DNA of 39,759 bases, taken from a virus. This document shows, piece after piece, positions 5,308 through 39,137 of this stretch. Where the stretch lies: positions 1 to 39,759 of IMG/VR virus record IMGVR_UViG_3300035211_000086. The stretch is one strand, 5' to 3'. How positions within the stretch are numbered: the first letter of the stretch is position 1; each line of letters begins with the position of its first letter. The notes beneath the pieces were generated by a model. The model was not told where the DNA came from. It saw only the letters and a program-made list of their open reading frames with translations, and did not search any database. Made by a program: the position numbers and the translations under genes.

Positions 5308-5622
5308 ATGGCAAAGGGATCACACGATTTGTTGTACAAGTTGGTGCTCGCGTTGAAGCGAAACGGACTCCAGGACGCGATCATTATACAGGATGACATG
5401 GGAGCCTATGATACTATTGAGTGCCTATTATGCGGAGTGTTTTTGTCGGACGCTGATCCGGCAGATCGCGAAACCGCACGACTGGCAATGAGAGACTATG
5501 ATAAATTCCCACACGCAGACAACTGCCCCTGGAAACAAGCGGTAGACTATTTAACCGGGAGAGAAAAGGGATTCGAGATATTTGACCGCCCGCCCGCTGA
5601 CGGCGGGGAAAGCGTGGAATGA
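5308..5622 (+). CDS. hypothetical protein, 104 aa
   Basis: The start chosen is the ATG preceded by GAGAAAGGTAAGAG, a leader that recurs almost unchanged before the genes at 6597 and 6916. An in-frame extension back to 5140 would overlap the previous gene and is unlikely. The product has four Cys in IECLLCGVF and ADNCPW contexts plus histidine, perhaps a metal site (CxxC...HxxxC). It ends in RPPADGGESVE, a C-terminal tail shared with the gene at 6916. Stop and next start overlap (ATGA). Function unknown. Confidence 0.65.
   Translation: MAKGSHDLLYKLVLALKRNGLQDAIIIQDDMGAYDTIECLLCGVFLSDADPADRETARLAMRDYDKFPHADNCPWKQAVDYLTGREKGFEIFDRPPADGGESVE
5584..5612 (+). repeat. 29-bp GC-rich repeat, copy A (copy B at 7165-7193)
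   Basis: Coding repeat at the end of the gene ending at 5622. It matches 7165-7193 at 28 of 29 positions, and a diverged partial copy lies at 6882-6904. It encodes the tail DRPPADGGE and forms a short hairpin (CCCGCC...GGCGGG) just before the SD/start region of the next gene. Same position in each gene, at the 3' end. Confidence 0.75.
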
Positions 5623-6401
5623 TGGACCACATTGTATTCGTATCAGGCGGAAAAGCATCGTTTGAATTACTCAGGCGAGTCATTGACCGCTACGGCAAAT
5701 CAAACACGATTGCTATTTTTGCCGACACCAAAACCGAAGACCCCGATCTCTATCGCTTCCTGAATGACGTCGAGCGGGCATTAGACATTAATATTTTCAG
5801 GCTAGCTGAAGGCCGCACCGTCTGGGGAGTATTCGAGACTGAGGGCATGATGGGCAATTCGCGAATTGATCCATGCTCCCGAATCCTGAAGCGCGATCTT
5901 CTTATGAGCTACCTCAAAGAAAACTACTCACCAGATGATACCATTGTCCACCTGGGGTTAGATTGGCAGGAGGAACACCGGATTAAGCGGGTGCGCAAGA
6001 ATTACGAGCGTATTGGCTATCGCACCGAATTTTTGTTAGCTGAACCGCCCTATCAGTGGGGCGATCAGTATATGGCCTCTATCCGCAGTTTGGGTATAGA
6101 GCCACCTCACCTATACTTGTTGGGTTTTGAACACAACAACTGTGGTGGAACCTGCGTGAAAGCAGGTCAGGCACAATGGGCAATGGTTTATCGTAAGTTA
6201 CCCGCCCGGTTTGCTGATTGGGAAGCGAAAGAACAGCAGTTCAGAGAGGATCACGGTGATGTATCGATCCTGAGAGACTGGAAAAACGGCGGGCGCGAAA
6301 ACTTTAAAACTCTTACATTAAGAGAGTTTCGCCACCGATTAGAAAATGGCGGGCAAGTTGATATGTTCGTCCCTGCAAGTTGCACTTGTTTTGTGGAGTG
6401 A
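5619..6401 (+). CDS. PAPS reductase / PP-loop family protein (adenylyl-dependent sulfur chemistry)
   Basis: The 260-aa product has the PP-loop SGGKAS at 9-14, then FADTKTEDPDLYRF, and a later Cys-rich region (DPCSRILKRD, NNCGGTCVKAGQ, SCTCF). This is the organisation of phage and mobile-element PAPS-reductase-like ATP pyrophosphatases, related to CysH/DndC-type proteins that activate or transfer sulfur. CysH-like sulfate reduction is unlikely in isolation. A role in thio-modification of DNA or RNA, or nucleotide activation, fits better, but no dnd partner genes are visible. The start is coupled to the previous gene (ATGA). Confidence 0.75.
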   Translation: MMDHIVFVSGGKASFELLRRVIDRYGKSNTIAIFADTKTEDPDLYRFLNDVERALDINIFRLAEGRTVWGVFETEGMMGNSRIDPCSRILKRDLLMSYLKENYSPDDTIVHLGLDWQEEHRIKRVRKNYERIGYRTEFLLAEPPYQWGDQYMASIRSLGIEPPHLYLLGFEHNNCGGTCVKAGQAQWAMVYRKLPARFADWEAKEQQFREDHGDVSILRDWKNGGRENFKTLTLREFRHRLENGGQVDMFVPASCTCFVE

Positions 6402-6545: not shown

Positions 6546-6572
6546 GTAACTCCCGATATCCCATATCGTTAC
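6546..6572 (+). repeat. intercistronic hairpin
   Basis: Two nested pairings: GTAAC (6546-6550) with GTTAC (6568-6572), and GATAT (6555-6559) with ATATC (6563-6567), with an asymmetric bulge. It lies between the stop at 6539 and the recurring SD leader GAGAAAGGTAAGAG before 6597. The GTAAC/GTTAC arms echo the hairpin at 5248-5281. There is no T-run, so termination is unlikely. Confidence 0.45.
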
Positions 6573-6596: not shown

Positions 6597-6908
6597 ATGA
6601 TGACCAACATACCACAACCGAAGCGTGGATTTAAAATAAAGACGTTCGGAAGTGTTCAACCAGAACATGAGCCGATTTGGTTTGAGTGTAACGTGCCCGA
6701 CATTATTGCAGATATTCAAACCGCCTGTGAGAGTGGTATGGGAATACTGCACCCTCCGCAGGGAACTTGCAAGTATTTCATATTATCACCGTCCATTTTG
6801 TATGATTACAATGAGATACTTGAGTATCTTCGTAGCTTTGAGGAAAACTTGTCTGGCATGGAGCCTGGGCTTGGTAGCCAAGACCCGCCCGGCGGCGGGG
6901 AAAGGTGA
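6597..6908 (+). CDS. hypothetical small protein, paralog of the gene at 35551-35790
   Basis: 103 aa, SD leader GAGAAAGGTAAGAG. The N-terminal stretch KIKTFGSVQPEHEPIW resembles VLKRFDAERPEHEPIG in the leftward gene at 35551-35790, so the two share an N-terminal module. The C-terminus ends with ENLSGMEPGLGSQDPPGGGER, a tail whose LSGMEPGLG motif recurs in genes at 7459 and 35315. Function unknown. The mix of shared ends with unlike middles suggests modular exchange between small genes. Confidence 0.65.
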   Translation: MMTNIPQPKRGFKIKTFGSVQPEHEPIWFECNVPDIIADIQTACESGMGILHPPQGTCKYFILSPSILYDYNEILEYLRSFEENLSGMEPGLGSQDPPGGGER

Positions 6909-6915
6909 GAGAAAA

Positions 6916-7197
6916 ATGAGCATGTTGGAACAGTGGCACAAGCAAGAATTATCACGACTGGAAACAACAAGAGGACACGGCGCGGGCTGGTTCATTGTCC
7001 GCGATCCCGATCCCTTCACCACCGGTAACGGATATCGGCGTCTTGCTGGCCCGTTTGCAACACGGGAGGCTGCTATGGAGACACTTCAAATTGTCGATAG
7101 GGGCGATGCCTTTCGCGGTGGCAAGTGGAAGGCAACCGGCTCGTGTATCGTGATAAAGGGTATTGACCGCCCGCCCGCAGACGGCGGGGAAAGGTGA
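6916..7197 (+). CDS. hypothetical protein, 93 aa
   Basis: ATG chosen because GGAAAGGTGAGAG precedes it, as at other starts here. An upstream in-frame extension overlaps the 6597 gene entirely and is rejected. The product has a WFIVRDPDPF...YRRLAGPFATREAAMETL pattern, seen in small alpha/beta proteins that read as 'field value plus sequence index', of unknown role. It ends in IDRPPADGGER, encoded by the 29-bp repeat also found at 5584. Not otherwise recognised. Confidence 0.65.
   Translation: MSMLEQWHKQELSRLETTRGHGAGWFIVRDPDPFTTGNGYRRLAGPFATREAAMETLQIVDRGDAFRGGKWKATGSCIVIKGIDRPPADGGER
7165..7193 (+). repeat. 29-bp GC-rich repeat, copy B
   Basis: Differs from the copy at 5584-5612 by a single base. 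It encodes the C-terminal DRPPADGGE and places GGGGAAAGGTGAG, the SD, directly in front of the next start. The repeat therefore supplies both the tail of one gene and the ribosome-binding site of the next. Confidence 0.75.
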
Positions 7198-7199
7198 GC

Positions 7200-7466
7200 A
7201 TGATGAACCGTGATGATACCAGACGCTTGGTGACCTGCCCCAAGTGCGAGGGGTATGGATCTATTTTTGATAGTCATTTATCTATGGATAGCCGCGAATG
7301 CGATTTGTGCAAAGGAGTTGGCGAGGTCAGTCTAAGGTTGGCGCTTCACGAAATGGAACTTCAGGAGCGGTTGCAGAGTCTCAGAGATGACTACTATCAA
7401 AATATAAACAAAATTTTGGAACAGGCCGCCCGCGAGAGGGAGGATATGGAGAATCTGAATGAGTGA
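7200..7466 (+). CDS. DnaJ-type zinc-finger small protein
   Basis: 88 aa. Two CxxCxGxG-like knuckles, CPKCEGYGSIF and CDLCKGVGEV, form the zinc-binding half of a DnaJ-type cysteine-rich domain, followed by a coiled-coil-like acidic C-terminus. There is no J domain. ATG at 7200 is preferred for SD spacing; GTG at 7194 and ATG at 7203 are possible. Such mini-proteins are common in phages and their role is unknown. It overlaps the next gene by 8 nt. Confidence 0.65.
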   Translation: MMNRDDTRRLVTCPKCEGYGSIFDSHLSMDSRECDLCKGVGEVSLRLALHEMELQERLQSLRDDYYQNINKILEQAAREREDMENLNE

Positions 7467-8184: not shown

Positions 8185-8709
8185 GTGAGCGCCATATACA
8201 ACCTGTTTGGATTGATGATAGCATTACTACCCTACACGCGGCTGTATATTCCCGCGCTCCAACTGGACGTTAACATTATCGCGGTATCCGACCTGTGGCA
8301 GCTCCCTGGCGGGGGCACCAGTTGGGATCTGGCCGTTATCGGCGATCAGGTCGGTTGGCTTGACCCGGTAGGCTATCCCCTGGCAGGATCCGGCAACATC
8401 GTACTGGCCGGGCATTACACTATTCCGCCGGGCGGACAATCTGGTCCGTTTTACGAGCTGCACCGGCTATCCTACGGCGATTTCATCTATGTCATGCGAC
8501 CAGACGGCACGACCGTAGGTTATCGCGTGTTTCAGACCGGGATTGTAGACGATGACGATATGTCGGTGGTCTGGGATACTGGCGACCAGCGGCTCACGCT
8601 GATTGGTTGCCCTGGCACAGACTATGAGCACCGCCGGGTAGTGGTAGCCGACTCGCCCAGTAGAGTGACCTGCACCCAACCAGGCGGCGCGGTGGTGCCG
8701 TGTTTTTGA
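8185..8709 (+). CDS. phage-encoded sortase (class E/Chloroflexota-like)
   Basis: The 174-aa product has the sortase catalytic triad in order: H77 in NIVLAGHYT, C142 in LTLIGCPG, and R150/R151 in HRRVVVAD. A hydrophobic N-terminal anchor (about 4-16) runs straight into a sortase-domain start (YIPALQLDVNIIAV). GSGNIVLAGH, GPFYELHRLSYGD and YRVFQTGIVDDDDMSVV follow the family alignment well. Sortases cleave a C-terminal sorting motif and join the protein to the cell wall or another protein. The GTG start overlaps its SD (GAGGAG). It heads the late operon. No LPXTG-type substrate was found in the window. Confidence 0.82.
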   Translation: MSAIYNLFGLMIALLPYTRLYIPALQLDVNIIAVSDLWQLPGGGTSWDLAVIGDQVGWLDPVGYPLAGSGNIVLAGHYTIPPGGQSGPFYELHRLSYGDFIYVMRPDGTTVGYRVFQTGIVDDDDMSVVWDTGDQRLTLIGCPGTDYEHRRVVVADSPSRVTCTQPGGAVVPCF

Positions 8710-34775: not shown

Positions 34776-35060
34776 TTATTTGACCTTGCCGGTCAGGTAT
34801 TCGATGATGCGAACTTTTCTCCACTGTTCAAGTTTTGTGCGCTCACTTACCCATTCTGGCGAACAAGCGATTTTGTGTAGATGCGTTATTCGTGGGTTAT
34901 ATTCTGACCAGTACCGCTCTCTCATTTCAGTAGACATCAATGCATAAAGTTCCCAGACTGCCATCTCCTCATACCGCTGCTGATGCAATCGGGGCAGCCC
35001 CGGCTCTCTGCCGTTCGGCCCCGGCTGGCCGCCTAATCCGGGCGCGTTGTCATCGGTCAT
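34776..35060 (-). CDS. hypothetical protein, last gene of the leftward operon
   Basis: 94 aa, SD GAAAGGGG. The N-terminus carries the glycine-proline-rich NAPGLGGQPGPNGREPGL, related to the EPGLG/EPMLGD tails of neighbouring genes, here placed at the start. A helical body follows (EEMAVWELYALMSTEMRERYW). Function unknown. Confidence 0.6.
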   Translation of the reverse strand: MTDDNAPGLGGQPGPNGREPGLPRLHQQRYEEMAVWELYALMSTEMRERYWSEYNPRITHLHKIACSPEWVSERTKLEQWRKVRIIEYLTGKVK

Positions 35061-35318: not shown

Positions 35319-35551
35319 GGCTCCACCTCCTGATTTCCGAGTCCCGGTTCCATGCCGGATAGGTCGGGGTTTACATCTAGTCCATCTGCGATTTTGCGTA
35401 ATTGTAGGGCGAGTTCTTCCCAACTCTCATTTCTACGCATCATTATTTTTACTTCGATTACCGTAATACTACCAGGGCCAACTTGGTCAACGTTAATTAC
35501 ATAAGCGTTAGCTTCATCGTTGTAATGTGGTTGGGTAGTTATAATGCTCAT
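35315..35551 (-). CDS. hypothetical small protein with LSGMEPGLG tail, paralog of the gene at 7459
   Basis: 78 aa from ATG 35551 with an excellent SD (GGGAGGTGGAG). Beta strands then a helix (VGPGSITVIEVKIMMRRNE...LALQLRKIADGLD), ending NPDLSGMEPGLGNQEVEP. Same layout as the rightward gene at 7459-7725, so a diverged duplicate on the opposite strand. Its last codons are the SD for the next gene. Function unknown. Confidence 0.65.
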   Translation of the reverse strand: MSIITTQPHYNDEANAYVINVDQVGPGSITVIEVKIMMRRNESWEELALQLRKIADGLDVNPDLSGMEPGLGNQEVEP

Positions 35552-35790
35552 CACTCCACCTCCCGCCCTCGCCGAATATACCCCGCCCAATAGTGGCCGG
35601 TTTCTATCTGGGTTTTTTCGTCAAACACCGCAGACTCGCACCCCTCCGCCACGTACCATGTTTTCCCATACCTTTCATGCAAGCATTTGCACATCGCGTA
35701 AAATGCGGATGGCTCGTCGGGATATTCCCCGATTGGTTCGTGTTCTGGTCGTTCGGCGTCAAAACGCTTTAATACCCAGGGTTCAAACAT
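35551..35790 (-). CDS. hypothetical small protein, paralog of the gene at 6597
   Basis: 79 aa. N-terminal VLKRFDAERPEHEPIGEYPDEPSAFYAM matches KIKTFGSVQPEHEPIW... of the 6597 gene in spacing and composition. The end RRGREVE encodes GGGAGGTGGAG, which is the SD of the next gene. TGATG overlaps on both sides show full translational coupling. Function unknown. Confidence 0.65.
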   Translation of the reverse strand: MFEPWVLKRFDAERPEHEPIGEYPDEPSAFYAMCKCLHERYGKTWYVAEGCESAVFDEKTQIETGHYWAGYIRRGREVE

Positions 35791-36059
35791 CACTCCACCT
35801 CCCGGTGCCCGGTGCTCTCTAGCAGCTTTCGGCATAACTCAACGCCGGGCAGCACCTCGCCGTTTTCGATTTTTGACAGGTAGGTATAGTCATAGCCTAT
35901 CGACTGGGCAAAGTCTCGCAGGGACAGCCCCAGCAGTTCCCGGTGGCGTTTGATGTACCGCCCGGCCTCTTTGCGATGCTTGAGTAGTTGCCGCTCATAG
36001 TTGACAACTGTTTCGTACTCGAATAAGCACCGCCTGATTTGTGCACTTTTGCTAACCAT
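35790..36059 (-). CDS. XRE-family helix-turn-helix regulator
   Basis: 89 aa, SD GGGAGGTAA. The C-terminal two-thirds is a Cro/C1-type HTH: RYIKRHRELLGLSLRDFAQSIGYDYTYLSKIENGEVLPGVELCRKLLES. An N-terminal ~30-residue extension precedes it. Likely a DNA-binding regulator in the leftward operon; the repeats in the control region at 37295-37378 or 37485-37529 are candidate targets. Repressor or anti-repressor role cannot be told. Confidence 0.82.
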   Translation of the reverse strand: MVSKSAQIRRCLFEYETVVNYERQLLKHRKEAGRYIKRHRELLGLSLRDFAQSIGYDYTYLSKIENGEVLPGVELCRKLLESTGHREVE

Positions 36060-37378: not shown

Positions 37379-37408
37379 AAGACAGTCCATACAGACAATC
37401 TCTTTATC

Positions 37409-37437
37409 ATTGTACAGCACCTCGCCCAAAAACACAA
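37409..37437 (-). promoter_or_regulatory. predicted leftward promoter
   Basis: Minus strand -35 TTGTGT (37437-37432), 17-nt spacer, -10 TACAAT (37414-37409). It would start about 37402 and drive the seven-gene leftward operon, whose leader contains the antisense RNA region and the SD-hairpin. The -10 is near consensus, the -35 moderate. Confidence 0.5.
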
Positions 37438-37484
37438 TTAGAATGTGGGTTGTATCTTGTTCGGAACACTATGTTAAATCCAAC

Positions 37485-37533
37485 CTACAATTGTATAGTA
37501 GCTATTGACTATTATACAATTGTATAGTATGAT
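37485..37533 (+). promoter_or_regulatory. strong rightward promoter with two operators
   Basis: -35 TTGACT (37505-37510), 17-nt spacer, -10 TATGAT (37528-37533). The 14-base direct repeat ACAATTGTATAGTA occurs at 37487-37500 and 37516-37529, exactly 29 bp apart. The second copy is part of the perfect palindrome TATACAATTGTATA (37513-37526) within the spacer and -10. This looks like a repressor-controlled early promoter for the rightward operon starting at 37569. Confidence 0.75.
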
Positions 37534-37568
37534 ATAGACAGTTAAGTAAACCAACCAGGAGACACAAA

Positions 37569-37874
37569 ATGTACACAATCGTTCGATGGGATAATAATCA
37601 ATCGTTAGGCACATATGAGGATTTGGCTACAGCCAAGCGTCAATGTCGGAAGCTCGGTCACACTGGCAAGCCTTACGGCAATACTTATCCTCCTATTGCC
37701 CGCGTCGATGATGAGAATGGAACTGTGTATAATCCCCGGTTCGTAGTTGGTAAACACGACCATTTACAAACCCGTCTCATCGACAAGCCCGACACCAAGA
37801 TTGATCGGGGAATTGCTGCCGCTCATAACGCCAGGACTCAACTTAAACATTGGGATTGGCAGCGCAAGCCATAA
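37569..37874 (+). CDS. hypothetical protein, first gene of the rightward small-gene array
   Basis: 101 aa, SD CAGGAGAC, about 30 nt after the predicted start of the promoter at 37505. Charged, alpha/beta mix (MYTIVRWDNNQSLGTYEDLATAKRQCRKLGHTG, shown to residue 33 in overview). No family recognised. It is followed by structured element 1. Confidence 0.6.
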   Translation: MYTIVRWDNNQSLGTYEDLATAKRQCRKLGHTGKPYGNTYPPIARVDDENGTVYNPRFVVGKHDHLQTRLIDKPDTKIDRGIAAAHNARTQLKHWDWQRKP

Positions 37875-37879
37875 CCGCC

Positions 37880-37933
37880 GCTTAACCCAGACTCAGCCCC
37901 TCACACGCTGGGGGGCTGGCCTCTGTGTTAATC
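37880..37933 (+). repeat. structured intercistronic element 1
   Basis: GCTTAACCCAGACT (37880 on) and TCTGTGTTAATC (37922-37933) pair at the ends (one mismatch). Inside, CAGCCCC pairs with GGGGCTG. It lies 6 nt after a stop and about 23 nt before the next ATG. It shares ends and layout with elements 2-4. Confidence 0.8.
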
Positions 37934-37956
37934 AGTCAATCATTACAGGAGATACC

Positions 37957-38124
37957 ATGACCAACTCGAACGAACAGAACGCAGTAGCTCAAGCCAAAGC
38001 CCGGTTAGCCTGGATAGAGGCGCGAGGGATAAAGAACCAATGGCAGCAGCAGACCTACGAAAGCGCCGTGCACGAATTGGAGAGCGCGGAGAAGCGGTTA
38101 GCGAAGGCCACTCGGAACGACTAA
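37957..38124 (+). CDS. small helical protein, 55 aa
   Basis: ATG with SD CAGGAGATACC. Mostly helix and charged (QNAVAQAKARLAWIEARGI...AVHELESAEKRLAKA), a coiled-coil-like peptide. Its TAA stop is inside element 2 (CTAACCCA). Longer in-frame extension to 37747 would run through element 1 and is rejected. Function unknown. Confidence 0.6.
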   Translation: MTNSNEQNAVAQAKARLAWIEARGIKNQWQQQTYESAVHELESAEKRLAKATRND

Positions 38125-38181
38125 CCCAGACTCAGCCGGGGAAGGAAAGGAAAGGTTCCCCCGCTGGCCTGTGGGTTAATC
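38121..38181 (+). repeat. structured intercistronic element 2
   Basis: TAACCCA (38122-38128) pairs with TGGGTTA (38172-38178). Inside, CAGC (38133-38136) pairs with GCTG (38163-38166), and GGGGAA pairs with TTCCCC around a purine-rich loop. The conserved 3' end GTTAATC is followed by AATATAGGAAAGGA, the SD of the next gene. The stop of the previous gene is within the element. Confidence 0.82.
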
Positions 38182-38202
38182 AATATAGGAAAGGAATTTC
38201 AA

Positions 38203-38385
38203 ATGATCGAAACCATATTCGAGAACTGGAAAACGCGCCGCTGCCCTCATTGCGGGGGTAAAACGCGGACAGCCTTCCGGCAAACGGGCGTTAACTCGTT
38301 TGTAACTGCTAAACGCTGTGATGCGTGCAACGTTTGGGCGGAAGATTTCCGGGCATGGTGGCAGCTCTGGCGCAGCCGGGCTTAA
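38203..38385 (+). CDS. small zinc-ribbon protein, 60 aa
   Basis: SD AGGAAAGGA. Two CxxC knuckles, CPHCGGKTRTAF and KRCDACNVW, make a four-Cys zinc ribbon in the middle of a Trp/Arg-rich peptide. Ends at TAA within element 3. A small DNA- or protein-binding early factor is likely from the fold; target unknown. Confidence 0.65.
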   Translation: MIETIFENWKTRRCPHCGGKTRTAFRQTGVNSFVTAKRCDACNVWAEDFRAWWQLWRSRA

Positions 38386-38436
38386 CCCAAACTTCCGGGC
38401 GCAAGCTGGACTTGTTCCCGGAGCTGTGGGTTAATC
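38380..38436 (+). repeat. structured intercistronic element 3
   Basis: TTAACCCA (38382-38389) pairs perfectly over 8 bp with TGGGTTAA (38427-38434). Inside, TCCGGG (38394-38399) pairs with CCCGGA (38417-38422), and CAAG with CTTG forms an inner stem. Same outer ends, different centre, same place: stop codon inside, SD after (AAGAAAGGAAC). Confidence 0.82.
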
Positions 38437-38457
38437 AATTCAAGAAAGGAACGAGAT

Positions 38458-38652
38458 ATGTCTAATATCAACATCAAAGTCGGCGGCAATGTTGGGGGCG
38501 AGATCAATGTTTCTGAAAAGGACATTGTGATTGCTAACGGAAAACGGGTTACGAACCCTACCGAGAAGAAGCCATGTTTCTTCTGCAATCAACCTGTAAA
38601 AATATATTCGACCTGCCCCCATTGTGGTGGTCCATACACCGAAAGGCATTAA
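38458..38652 (+). CDS. small zinc-finger protein, 64 aa
   Basis: SD AAGAAAGGAAC. A Gly/Asn-rich beta N-terminus (NINIKVGGNVGGEINVSEKD) is followed by a four-Cys zinc ribbon (CFFCNQPV ... CPHCGGPY). TAA stop within element 4. Zinc-ribbon module resembles those at 35073 and 38203. Function unknown. Confidence 0.62.
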   Translation: MSNINIKVGGNVGGEINVSEKDIVIANGKRVTNPTEKKPCFFCNQPVKIYSTCPHCGGPYTERH

Positions 38653-38700
38653 CCCAGACCTTGCCCCGGAGCTTATCCGGGGTGAGACTCTGTGTTAATC
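38647..38700 (+). repeat. structured intercistronic element 4
   Basis: TTAACCCAGA (38649-38658) pairs with TCTGTGTTAA (38689-38698, one mismatch). The centre is CCCCGGA (38664-38670) with TCCGGGG (38676-38682), loop GCTTA. The 3' GTTAATC is followed by GAAAGGAGC, the SD of the excisionase-like gene. Confidence 0.82.
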
Positions 38701-38713
38701 GAAAGGAGCGACT

Positions 38714-38911
38714 ATGATCGACCTACGCGACGTGATGACTGTCCAGGAGGTGGCCGACACCTACGGGATCACCCGTGACACCGTACACAAGGCTATCCAG
38801 GACGACCGGATACCCGCCCGGCAGAGTTCGAAGACCTGGCTCATCAGGCGGGAAGATGCAGAGGCCCGATGGGGCGAAAGGAACGAAGATGATTCTTCTC
38901 AGGATTGGTAG
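38714..38911 (+). CDS. excisionase-like helix-turn-helix protein
   Basis: 65 aa, SD AAAGGAGC. MTVQEVADTYGITRDTVHKAIQDDRIPARQSSKTWLIRREDAEARWGERN is the typical HTH_17/excisionase fold (MTxxEVAxxLGVxxxTVxxxIxxGxIPAxxxGxxWLIxxxDLxxW). Likely a small DNA-binding protein involved in excision or gene control. Acts in the rightward operon; no integrase was found in the window. Confidence 0.85.
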   Translation: MIDLRDVMTVQEVADTYGITRDTVHKAIQDDRIPARQSSKTWLIRREDAEARWGERNEDDSSQDW

Positions 38912-39083
38912 CGGGATTCTGGCCATAGCATGTTTTCCACTAATAATGCTGGCAGCCGAGCGGGCTTCAGTTCTCTACGCTGAGAATCGAAACTTTGTGG
39001 AATTCACTCTATGCTTCACATGGTTCTGTATTGGCCCGGTGGTCATGGTTATTCTGGGTGTATATGCTATTGGTTTAACCTAA
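38889..39083 (+). CDS. small two-helix membrane protein
   Basis: 64 aa; the ATG lies within the previous gene (23-nt overlap) after GGAACGAAG. Two hydrophobic segments (about 5-23 and 41-61). Last gene of the rightward operon, followed by a terminator. Function unknown. Confidence 0.55.
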   Translation: MILLRIGSGILAIACFPLIMLAAERASVLYAENRNFVEFTLCFTWFCIGPVVMVILGVYAIGLT

Positions 39084-39107
39084 TCCCCATCCCCACCACA
39101 GTACAAG

Positions 39108-39127
39108 CCCCGCTCCGGCGGGGTTTT
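39108..39127 (+). terminator. rightward terminator
   Basis: CCCCGC (39108-39113), loop TCCG, GCGGGG (39118-39123), then TTTT. 25 nt after the last rightward gene. Confidence 0.85.
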
Positions 39128-39137
39128 GTGTGGCAAC

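Follow-up and report, generated by a model that had tools for sequence, protein, structure and literature searches.

In the early mRNA of phage T7, RNase III sites split the polycistronic transcript into separately usable parts, and the R1.1 substrate yields products of 47 and 13 nt (PMC4858673). In Cluster K mycobacteriophages, the ESAS elements are imperfect inverted repeats with a variable spacer that stand just upstream of many small non-structural gene starts; a 13-bp SAS comes after the 17-bp repeats, and those who described them saw little support for RNA hairpins (PMC3203893). The PeSLs of T4-like phages are intergenic stem-loops linked to gene shuffling and are described as composite promoter–terminator motifs in which an early promoter is combined with a terminator stem-loop (PMC4503421). 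For mosaic phages, short conserved sequences at gene junctions have been proposed as crossover sites (PMC3029335).

The window considered here, 39,759 bases long, is an entire IMG/VR record, which its predicted terminase, portal, and head genes identify as that of a tailed phage. The phage is unclassified, and searches of annotated phage records found neither a close relative of it nor relatives of the array described below or of the array proteins tested. Near the right end of the window lies an operon of six small genes, bounded by a promoter-like site at about 37505 and a terminator-like hairpin at about 39106 and interrupted by four structured elements, E1 to E4 (Table 1). The sole relative found to carry such elements is G001 (IMGVR_UViG_3300031274_000004, 48.6 kb), with three at the same locus. 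We think it somewhat more probable than its negation that the elements are intercistronic hairpins of a polycistronic phage mRNA, probably serving RNase III-type processing or insulation, and that ordinary recombination swaps genes at their edges.

Table 1. The small-gene operon and its intercistronic elements (window positions).
Feature	Position	Strand	Remarks
Promoter-like site TTGACT-17-TATGAT	37505..37533	+	10/12 consensus matches; operon start
First gene (ORF101), 101 aa	37569..37874	+	no known family; unrelated to the 144- and 126-aa genes found there in G001
Element E1	37882..37933	+	52 nt, 20 pairs; G001 copy identical, preceded by a different gene
Gene 2, helical peptide, 55 aa	37957..38124	+	kept in G001
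Element E2	38121..38181	+	61 nt, 19 pairs; gene 2 stop inside; 3' arm of G001 counterpart nearer the E1/E4 type
Zinc-ribbon-like protein, 60 aa	38203..38385	+	missing from G001 at the equivalent place
Element E3	38382..38436	+	55 nt, 20 pairs; contains the stop codon
Second zinc-ribbon-like protein, 64 aa	38458..38652	+	missing from G001 at the equivalent place
Element E4	38649..38700	+	52 nt, 20 pairs; stop inside; G001 homology restarts in the 3' arm at 38688
HTH protein, 65 aa	38714..38911	+	HTH_17; excisionase-like PHROG; kept in G001
Last gene, small protein	38889..39083	+	different gene in G001, breakpoint at start codon
Terminator-like hairpin AGCCCCGCTCCGGCGGGGTTTTGT	39106..39129	+	common to G001

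Each element spans the stop-codon region of a small gene and ends shortly before the next Shine–Dalgarno sequence. As a preliminary description of this DNA had noted in substance, the TAA stop lies within three of the elements and shortly before the fourth (7 nt upstream of E1). From the element end to the next start codon there are 23, 21, 21, and 13 nt (E1 to E4), occupied by ordinary Shine–Dalgarno stretches only. Where the reading frames can be tested against G001 they are real: differences by codon position number 0/0/5 in the compared part of gene 2, all in the third position, and 4/0/16 in the HTH gene. Family matches of both zinc-ribbon-like proteins are weak, that of the 60-aa protein falling below the curated cut-off; a domain related to that of the HTH protein is present in two further phages, G002 and G003.

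The four elements with shared ends that the preliminary description had reported are real, lie where it had placed them, and are far beyond chance. The plus strand of the window contains four copies of their paired end motif, TAACCCARAC...CTSTGKGTTAATC, against zero for the reversed motif and zero for a pattern-reversed control. An element covariance model run over 182 kb returned only the window's four and G001's three elements, with E values from 1e-11 to 4e-18 (leaving aside mirror matches at the same sites). All seven are in sense orientation, within one operon. Their restriction to the sense strand between stop codon and Shine–Dalgarno sequence of one operon, and to no other place in the 182 kb, counts in favor of hairpins acting in the mRNA. 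The outer arms, TTAACCCAGAC and CTSTGDGTTAATC, keep their sequence across elements, and both are TTAACNCA when each is read on its own strand.

Rfam gave no family in the window at the gathering score, and at E≤5 none of its matches overlapped the elements. A pattern scan of 85,000 species genomes returned 15 stretches with one match each, mostly folding poorly and fewer than a rough estimate of the number expected by chance; the covariance model gave weak matches only in the same genomes. In a viral collection queried with the pattern, the leader, the HTH gene, gene 2, ORF101, and a 402-aa neighbor, elements appeared in G001 only, and L036, the second leader match there, contains none according to the covariance model.

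Each of E1 to E4 folds as a single hairpin (RNA z-scores of −3.2, −2.4, −3.8, and −4.7), and the six distinct elements all form 19–20 pairs despite lengths that range from 52 to 61 nt. The earlier observation that the centers all differ within the window and yet are always self-complementary is borne out by the individual folds and by shuffling of the centers, in which 0 (G001-E0), 2 (E1), 18 (E2), 1 (E3), and 0 (E4) of 2000 shuffled versions folded as well as the original. When halves were swapped between elements, matched halves folded better than any mismatched combination in their row or column. Covariation was scored on an alignment of five different centers from two phages, trimmed so as to keep the arms and, from the individual folds, the first five inner pairs. 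The inner helix is paired in 100% of cells, a percentage that this trimming leans toward structure; both sides have changed at four of the five pairs tested, and the covariation score is 0.52 as against 0.20 for shuffled alignments (0/500 shuffles) and at most 0.09 when the alignment is slid. The outer arms show no covariation in this alignment, and their conservation could reflect protein recognition or copying; compensatory change, which the preliminary description had proposed looking for, is thus a property of the inner helix and not of the arms.

We count the near-constant pair number, the half-swap result, and the inner-helix covariation for the mRNA-hairpin explanation, which the preliminary description had offered as its alternative; against it we count the small sample of centers, the arms without covariation, and the lack of a strand preference. 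The elements fold equally well as single-stranded DNA of the opposite strand: antisense folds are as good as sense folds, and wobble pairs number 9 against 8. Folding energy therefore cannot tell RNA from single-stranded DNA, and neither folding nor wobble pairs prove a role in RNA over one in single-stranded DNA; that the hairpins function as RNA is what we infer.

The conserved arms invite a different explanation, in which a phage DNA-binding protein, for instance the HTH protein encoded within the operon itself, uses them as operator half-sites. Arms of the same sequence on their respective strands would suit such a protein, and DNA binding was the role favored for ESAS (PMC3203893). A DNA-binding site, however, needs no self-complementary center with a near-constant number of pairs, and here the centers covary, so we regard this explanation as distinctly unlikely.

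Folded within about 300 nt of context, E2 to E4 take shape with a probability near 1 for most pairs, and E1 forms its inner helix, with its outer helix reaching only about 0.3. No element contains a promoter-like site, those of the operon lying outside them, and E2 and E3 have no T-rich tail. Together with the context folds, these absences count toward hairpins acting in the mRNA. E1 and E4 suggest another role, that of partial transcription terminators or attenuators by which expression would be graded across the operon: their inner hairpins are followed by CCTCTGTGTT and ACTCTGTGTT, respectively, and score as weakly terminator-like. With no such tail at E2 and E3 and no uninterrupted T-run in any element, we hold this to be very unlikely. 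A permissive search of both genomes for hairpins of every kind was uninformative, returning 193 in the window alone.

Of the known systems, the early RNase III sites of T7 (R0.3 to R1.3) offer the closest structural parallel, as imperfect hairpins of about 60 nt situated between small early genes, several to an operon; all seven elements are likewise hairpins of 52–61 nt and 19–20 pairs between the genes of an operon, close to the roughly 60 nt and 20 pairs of the T7 type, of which R1.1 measures 60 nt. T7 is an unrelated phage, however, and the present elements differ in their conserved outer arms, differing centers, and associated gene exchange, while their cleavage is presumed by analogy. 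With ESAS they share an inverted repeat with a variable spacer upstream of the starts of unlike genes, but no SAS motif (GGGATAGGAGCCC) lies between element and start codon, and a hairpin that the ESAS arms do not support is here strongly supported, with a covarying center. PeSLs, as described, resemble the elements as stem-loops between genes tied to gene exchange and differ in that the elements have no promoter-like site and E2 and E3 no terminator tail. ESAS and PeSLs are the nearest named elements, and membership in each fails on a defining feature.

Exchange of the genes between the elements is real, as comparison with G001 shows. The two phages share no structural genes at the DNA level, and within the array they share the leader, which extends downstream of the promoter-like site to the first start codon (37408–37574 against 39816–39983 of G001, 82% identity), E1 with gene 2 (95%), and the HTH gene (90%). 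Between leader and E1, G001 carries two genes (144 and 126 aa) plus an additional element in the place of the window's single 101-aa gene. G001 also lacks both zinc-ribbon genes together with E3 and E4, so that gene 2 and its element lead straight into the HTH gene, and the last gene ahead of the shared terminator differs. These observations support exchangeability, as suspected in the preliminary description, for the first gene or genes, the zinc-ribbon units, and the last gene. Five breakpoints can be placed: at or adjoining the start codon of the first gene; at the stop codon immediately before E1, where TAACCG is common to both phages; in an element interior, where the G001 counterpart of E2 matches it through GCTGG and continues as TCTCTGAGTTAATC, nearer the E4 type; at the start codon that follows the HTH gene; and at the terminator. 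E1 itself is identical over 52 nt behind the unrelated ORF101 (window) and ORF126 (G001).

Such a pattern would also arise if the elements were mainly recombination boundary sequences, their arms kept or spread for letting phage recombinases swap genes and the hairpin being secondary. Window/G001 breakpoints do fall at elements, the additional G001 element lies between genes missing from the window, and in G002 and G003, a pair with a related HTH gene, a block of 98.8% identity stops just past an intercistronic double hairpin and gives way to unlike genes. Yet start codons and the terminator, where no element is present, have breakpoints too, the self-complementarity of every center is left unexplained, and no single-strand-annealing recombinase was recognized among the proteins searched. 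We accordingly rate boundary function as the main role of the elements unlikely while allowing it some weight. The junction sequences proposed for mosaic phages differ from the present case, in which a structured element is repeated within one operon and crossovers also occur at codons without elements.

The preliminary description had further likened the elements to integron attC sites, with which they share an imperfect inverted repeat after a gene, conserved ends, and a variable center. The reading would make the array a set of integron-like cassettes, in which a tyrosine recombinase acting in trans would recombine attC-like sites in their folded single-stranded form, and several features do suit it: the hairpins stand at the 3' ends of promoterless small genes, two units of gene plus element are present in the window and absent from G001, and the leader common to both phages contains GTTAAGT, a fit to the core. 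Core, box layout, integrase, and linkage of gene to site all fail, however. The 3' core is GTTAATC in six elements and GTTAATT in one, so that the misfit to GTTRRRY already remarked upon extends to all seven; the 5' core RYYYAAC fits E1 and E3, as had been said, and fails in E2, E4, G001-E0, and G001-E2. An attC covariance model (R2), trained on a small set of 6 attC sites from class 1 integron plasmids, recovered three held-out attC sites at 47.6–64.3 bits and found nothing at E≤10 in the window and G001, missing all seven elements. Nor do the elements have the R/L box plan of the attC structure model, with its unpaired spacer and extrahelical base.

The absence of a visible integron integrase, also noted earlier, extends to four phage records, in which PF00589 gave no match at E≤1 (control genomes were all positive) and PF00239 gave none, though the host might supply such an enzyme. 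A divergent 302-aa gene adjoining the array, initially suspected to encode an integrase, has no recombinase match. The E2/E4 junction lies upstream of the GTT (GCTGG followed by TCTCTGAG), in the element interior and not at G^TT, and E1 is the same behind unrelated genes; a fixed site-specific cut therefore does not explain the pattern. The breakpoints thus largely refute integron-like cassettes already, and with the failed core, the negative attC model, and the missing recombinase we do not accept the attC reading, to which we give next to no credence. Hardly better placed is a new type of phage cassette system independent of integrons, with folded single-strand sites served by an enzyme in trans or an unrecognized phage protein and loading small accessory genes behind one promoter, which we consider highly improbable. 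The data support exchange by ordinary recombination rather than by an integron; of the overall picture first drawn, exchangeable genes and RNA hairpins survive, and the likeness to attC does not.

On the mRNA-hairpin explanation, an RNase specific for double strands, for example RNase III of the host, would bind or cut each hairpin in the transcript, or the hairpin would have a related RNA role, and cutting would leave transcript parts that are separately stable and separately translated. Expression would then be set by the punctuation and not by the genes, so that reading frames could be swapped from start to stop, through ordinary homologous or illegitimate phage recombination with the repeated arms as short homology; this may be their advantage for gene exchange. 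If this is true, the phage operon is a row of gene slots between standard RNA punctuation, whose structure and ends persist through changes of genes and centers. Messenger RNA processing would be linked to phage mosaicism, and the array would offer a testable case of small accessory genes becoming exchangeable without a dedicated recombinase, with the tempting but unsupported integron reading removed.

Other arrays of these phages have boundary hairpins and repeats of their own, which we likewise count for the mRNA-hairpin explanation. In the early gene array, a GC-rich gene-end hairpin of the CCGCCCGCCCGGTGACGGCGGGG type occurs in the window at 5582–5628, 6884–6909, and 7163–7209 and in G001 at 6552, 6984, 7586, and 8220; it is unrelated to the E1–E4 family, codes for C-termini such as ...RPPADGGE, and stands just ahead of the next Shine–Dalgarno sequence. 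Repeats of GGTTAC type lie near 5.0–5.3 kb of the window. In a leftward array on the minus strand, stop and start codons overlap in a repeated junction, CGGGAGGTGGAGTGATG and variants (35330–35340, 35549–35565, and 35788–35804), which in G001 also precedes an unrelated gene. With different repeats at the gene boundaries of different arrays, repeated punctuation looks like a habit of these phages rather than a single cassette system.

Several further observations concern gene junctions and contents. In L009 (4757–4820) and L010 (5439–5502), a double hairpin follows gene 1 and homology breaks right behind it, the next gene being unlike yet fused to a common related HTH domain. Two minus-strand genes (window 34776–35060 and L029 17989–18486) keep an N-terminal stretch and a C-terminal YLTGKVK around unlike middles, which suggests domain-level exchange inside a gene. 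In G001, a 20-nt hairpin repeat, ATTCCGCCGGGCGGATATT, flanks an extra gene missing from the window (37692–37711 and 37953–37972), and a repeat of about 21–27 nt that spans Shine–Dalgarno sequence and start, TAGGAGGCGTATGAGCCATGA and variants, marks the starts of five genes (14310, 15672, 24149, 24838, and 27100). A tRNA-Met gene, none of which was found in the window, adjoins the array leader in G001 (L029 19565–19636, minus strand). Elsewhere, the window phage has PAPS-reductase-like (5619–6401), sortase-like (8185–8709), and RNase H-like (1222–1626) genes.
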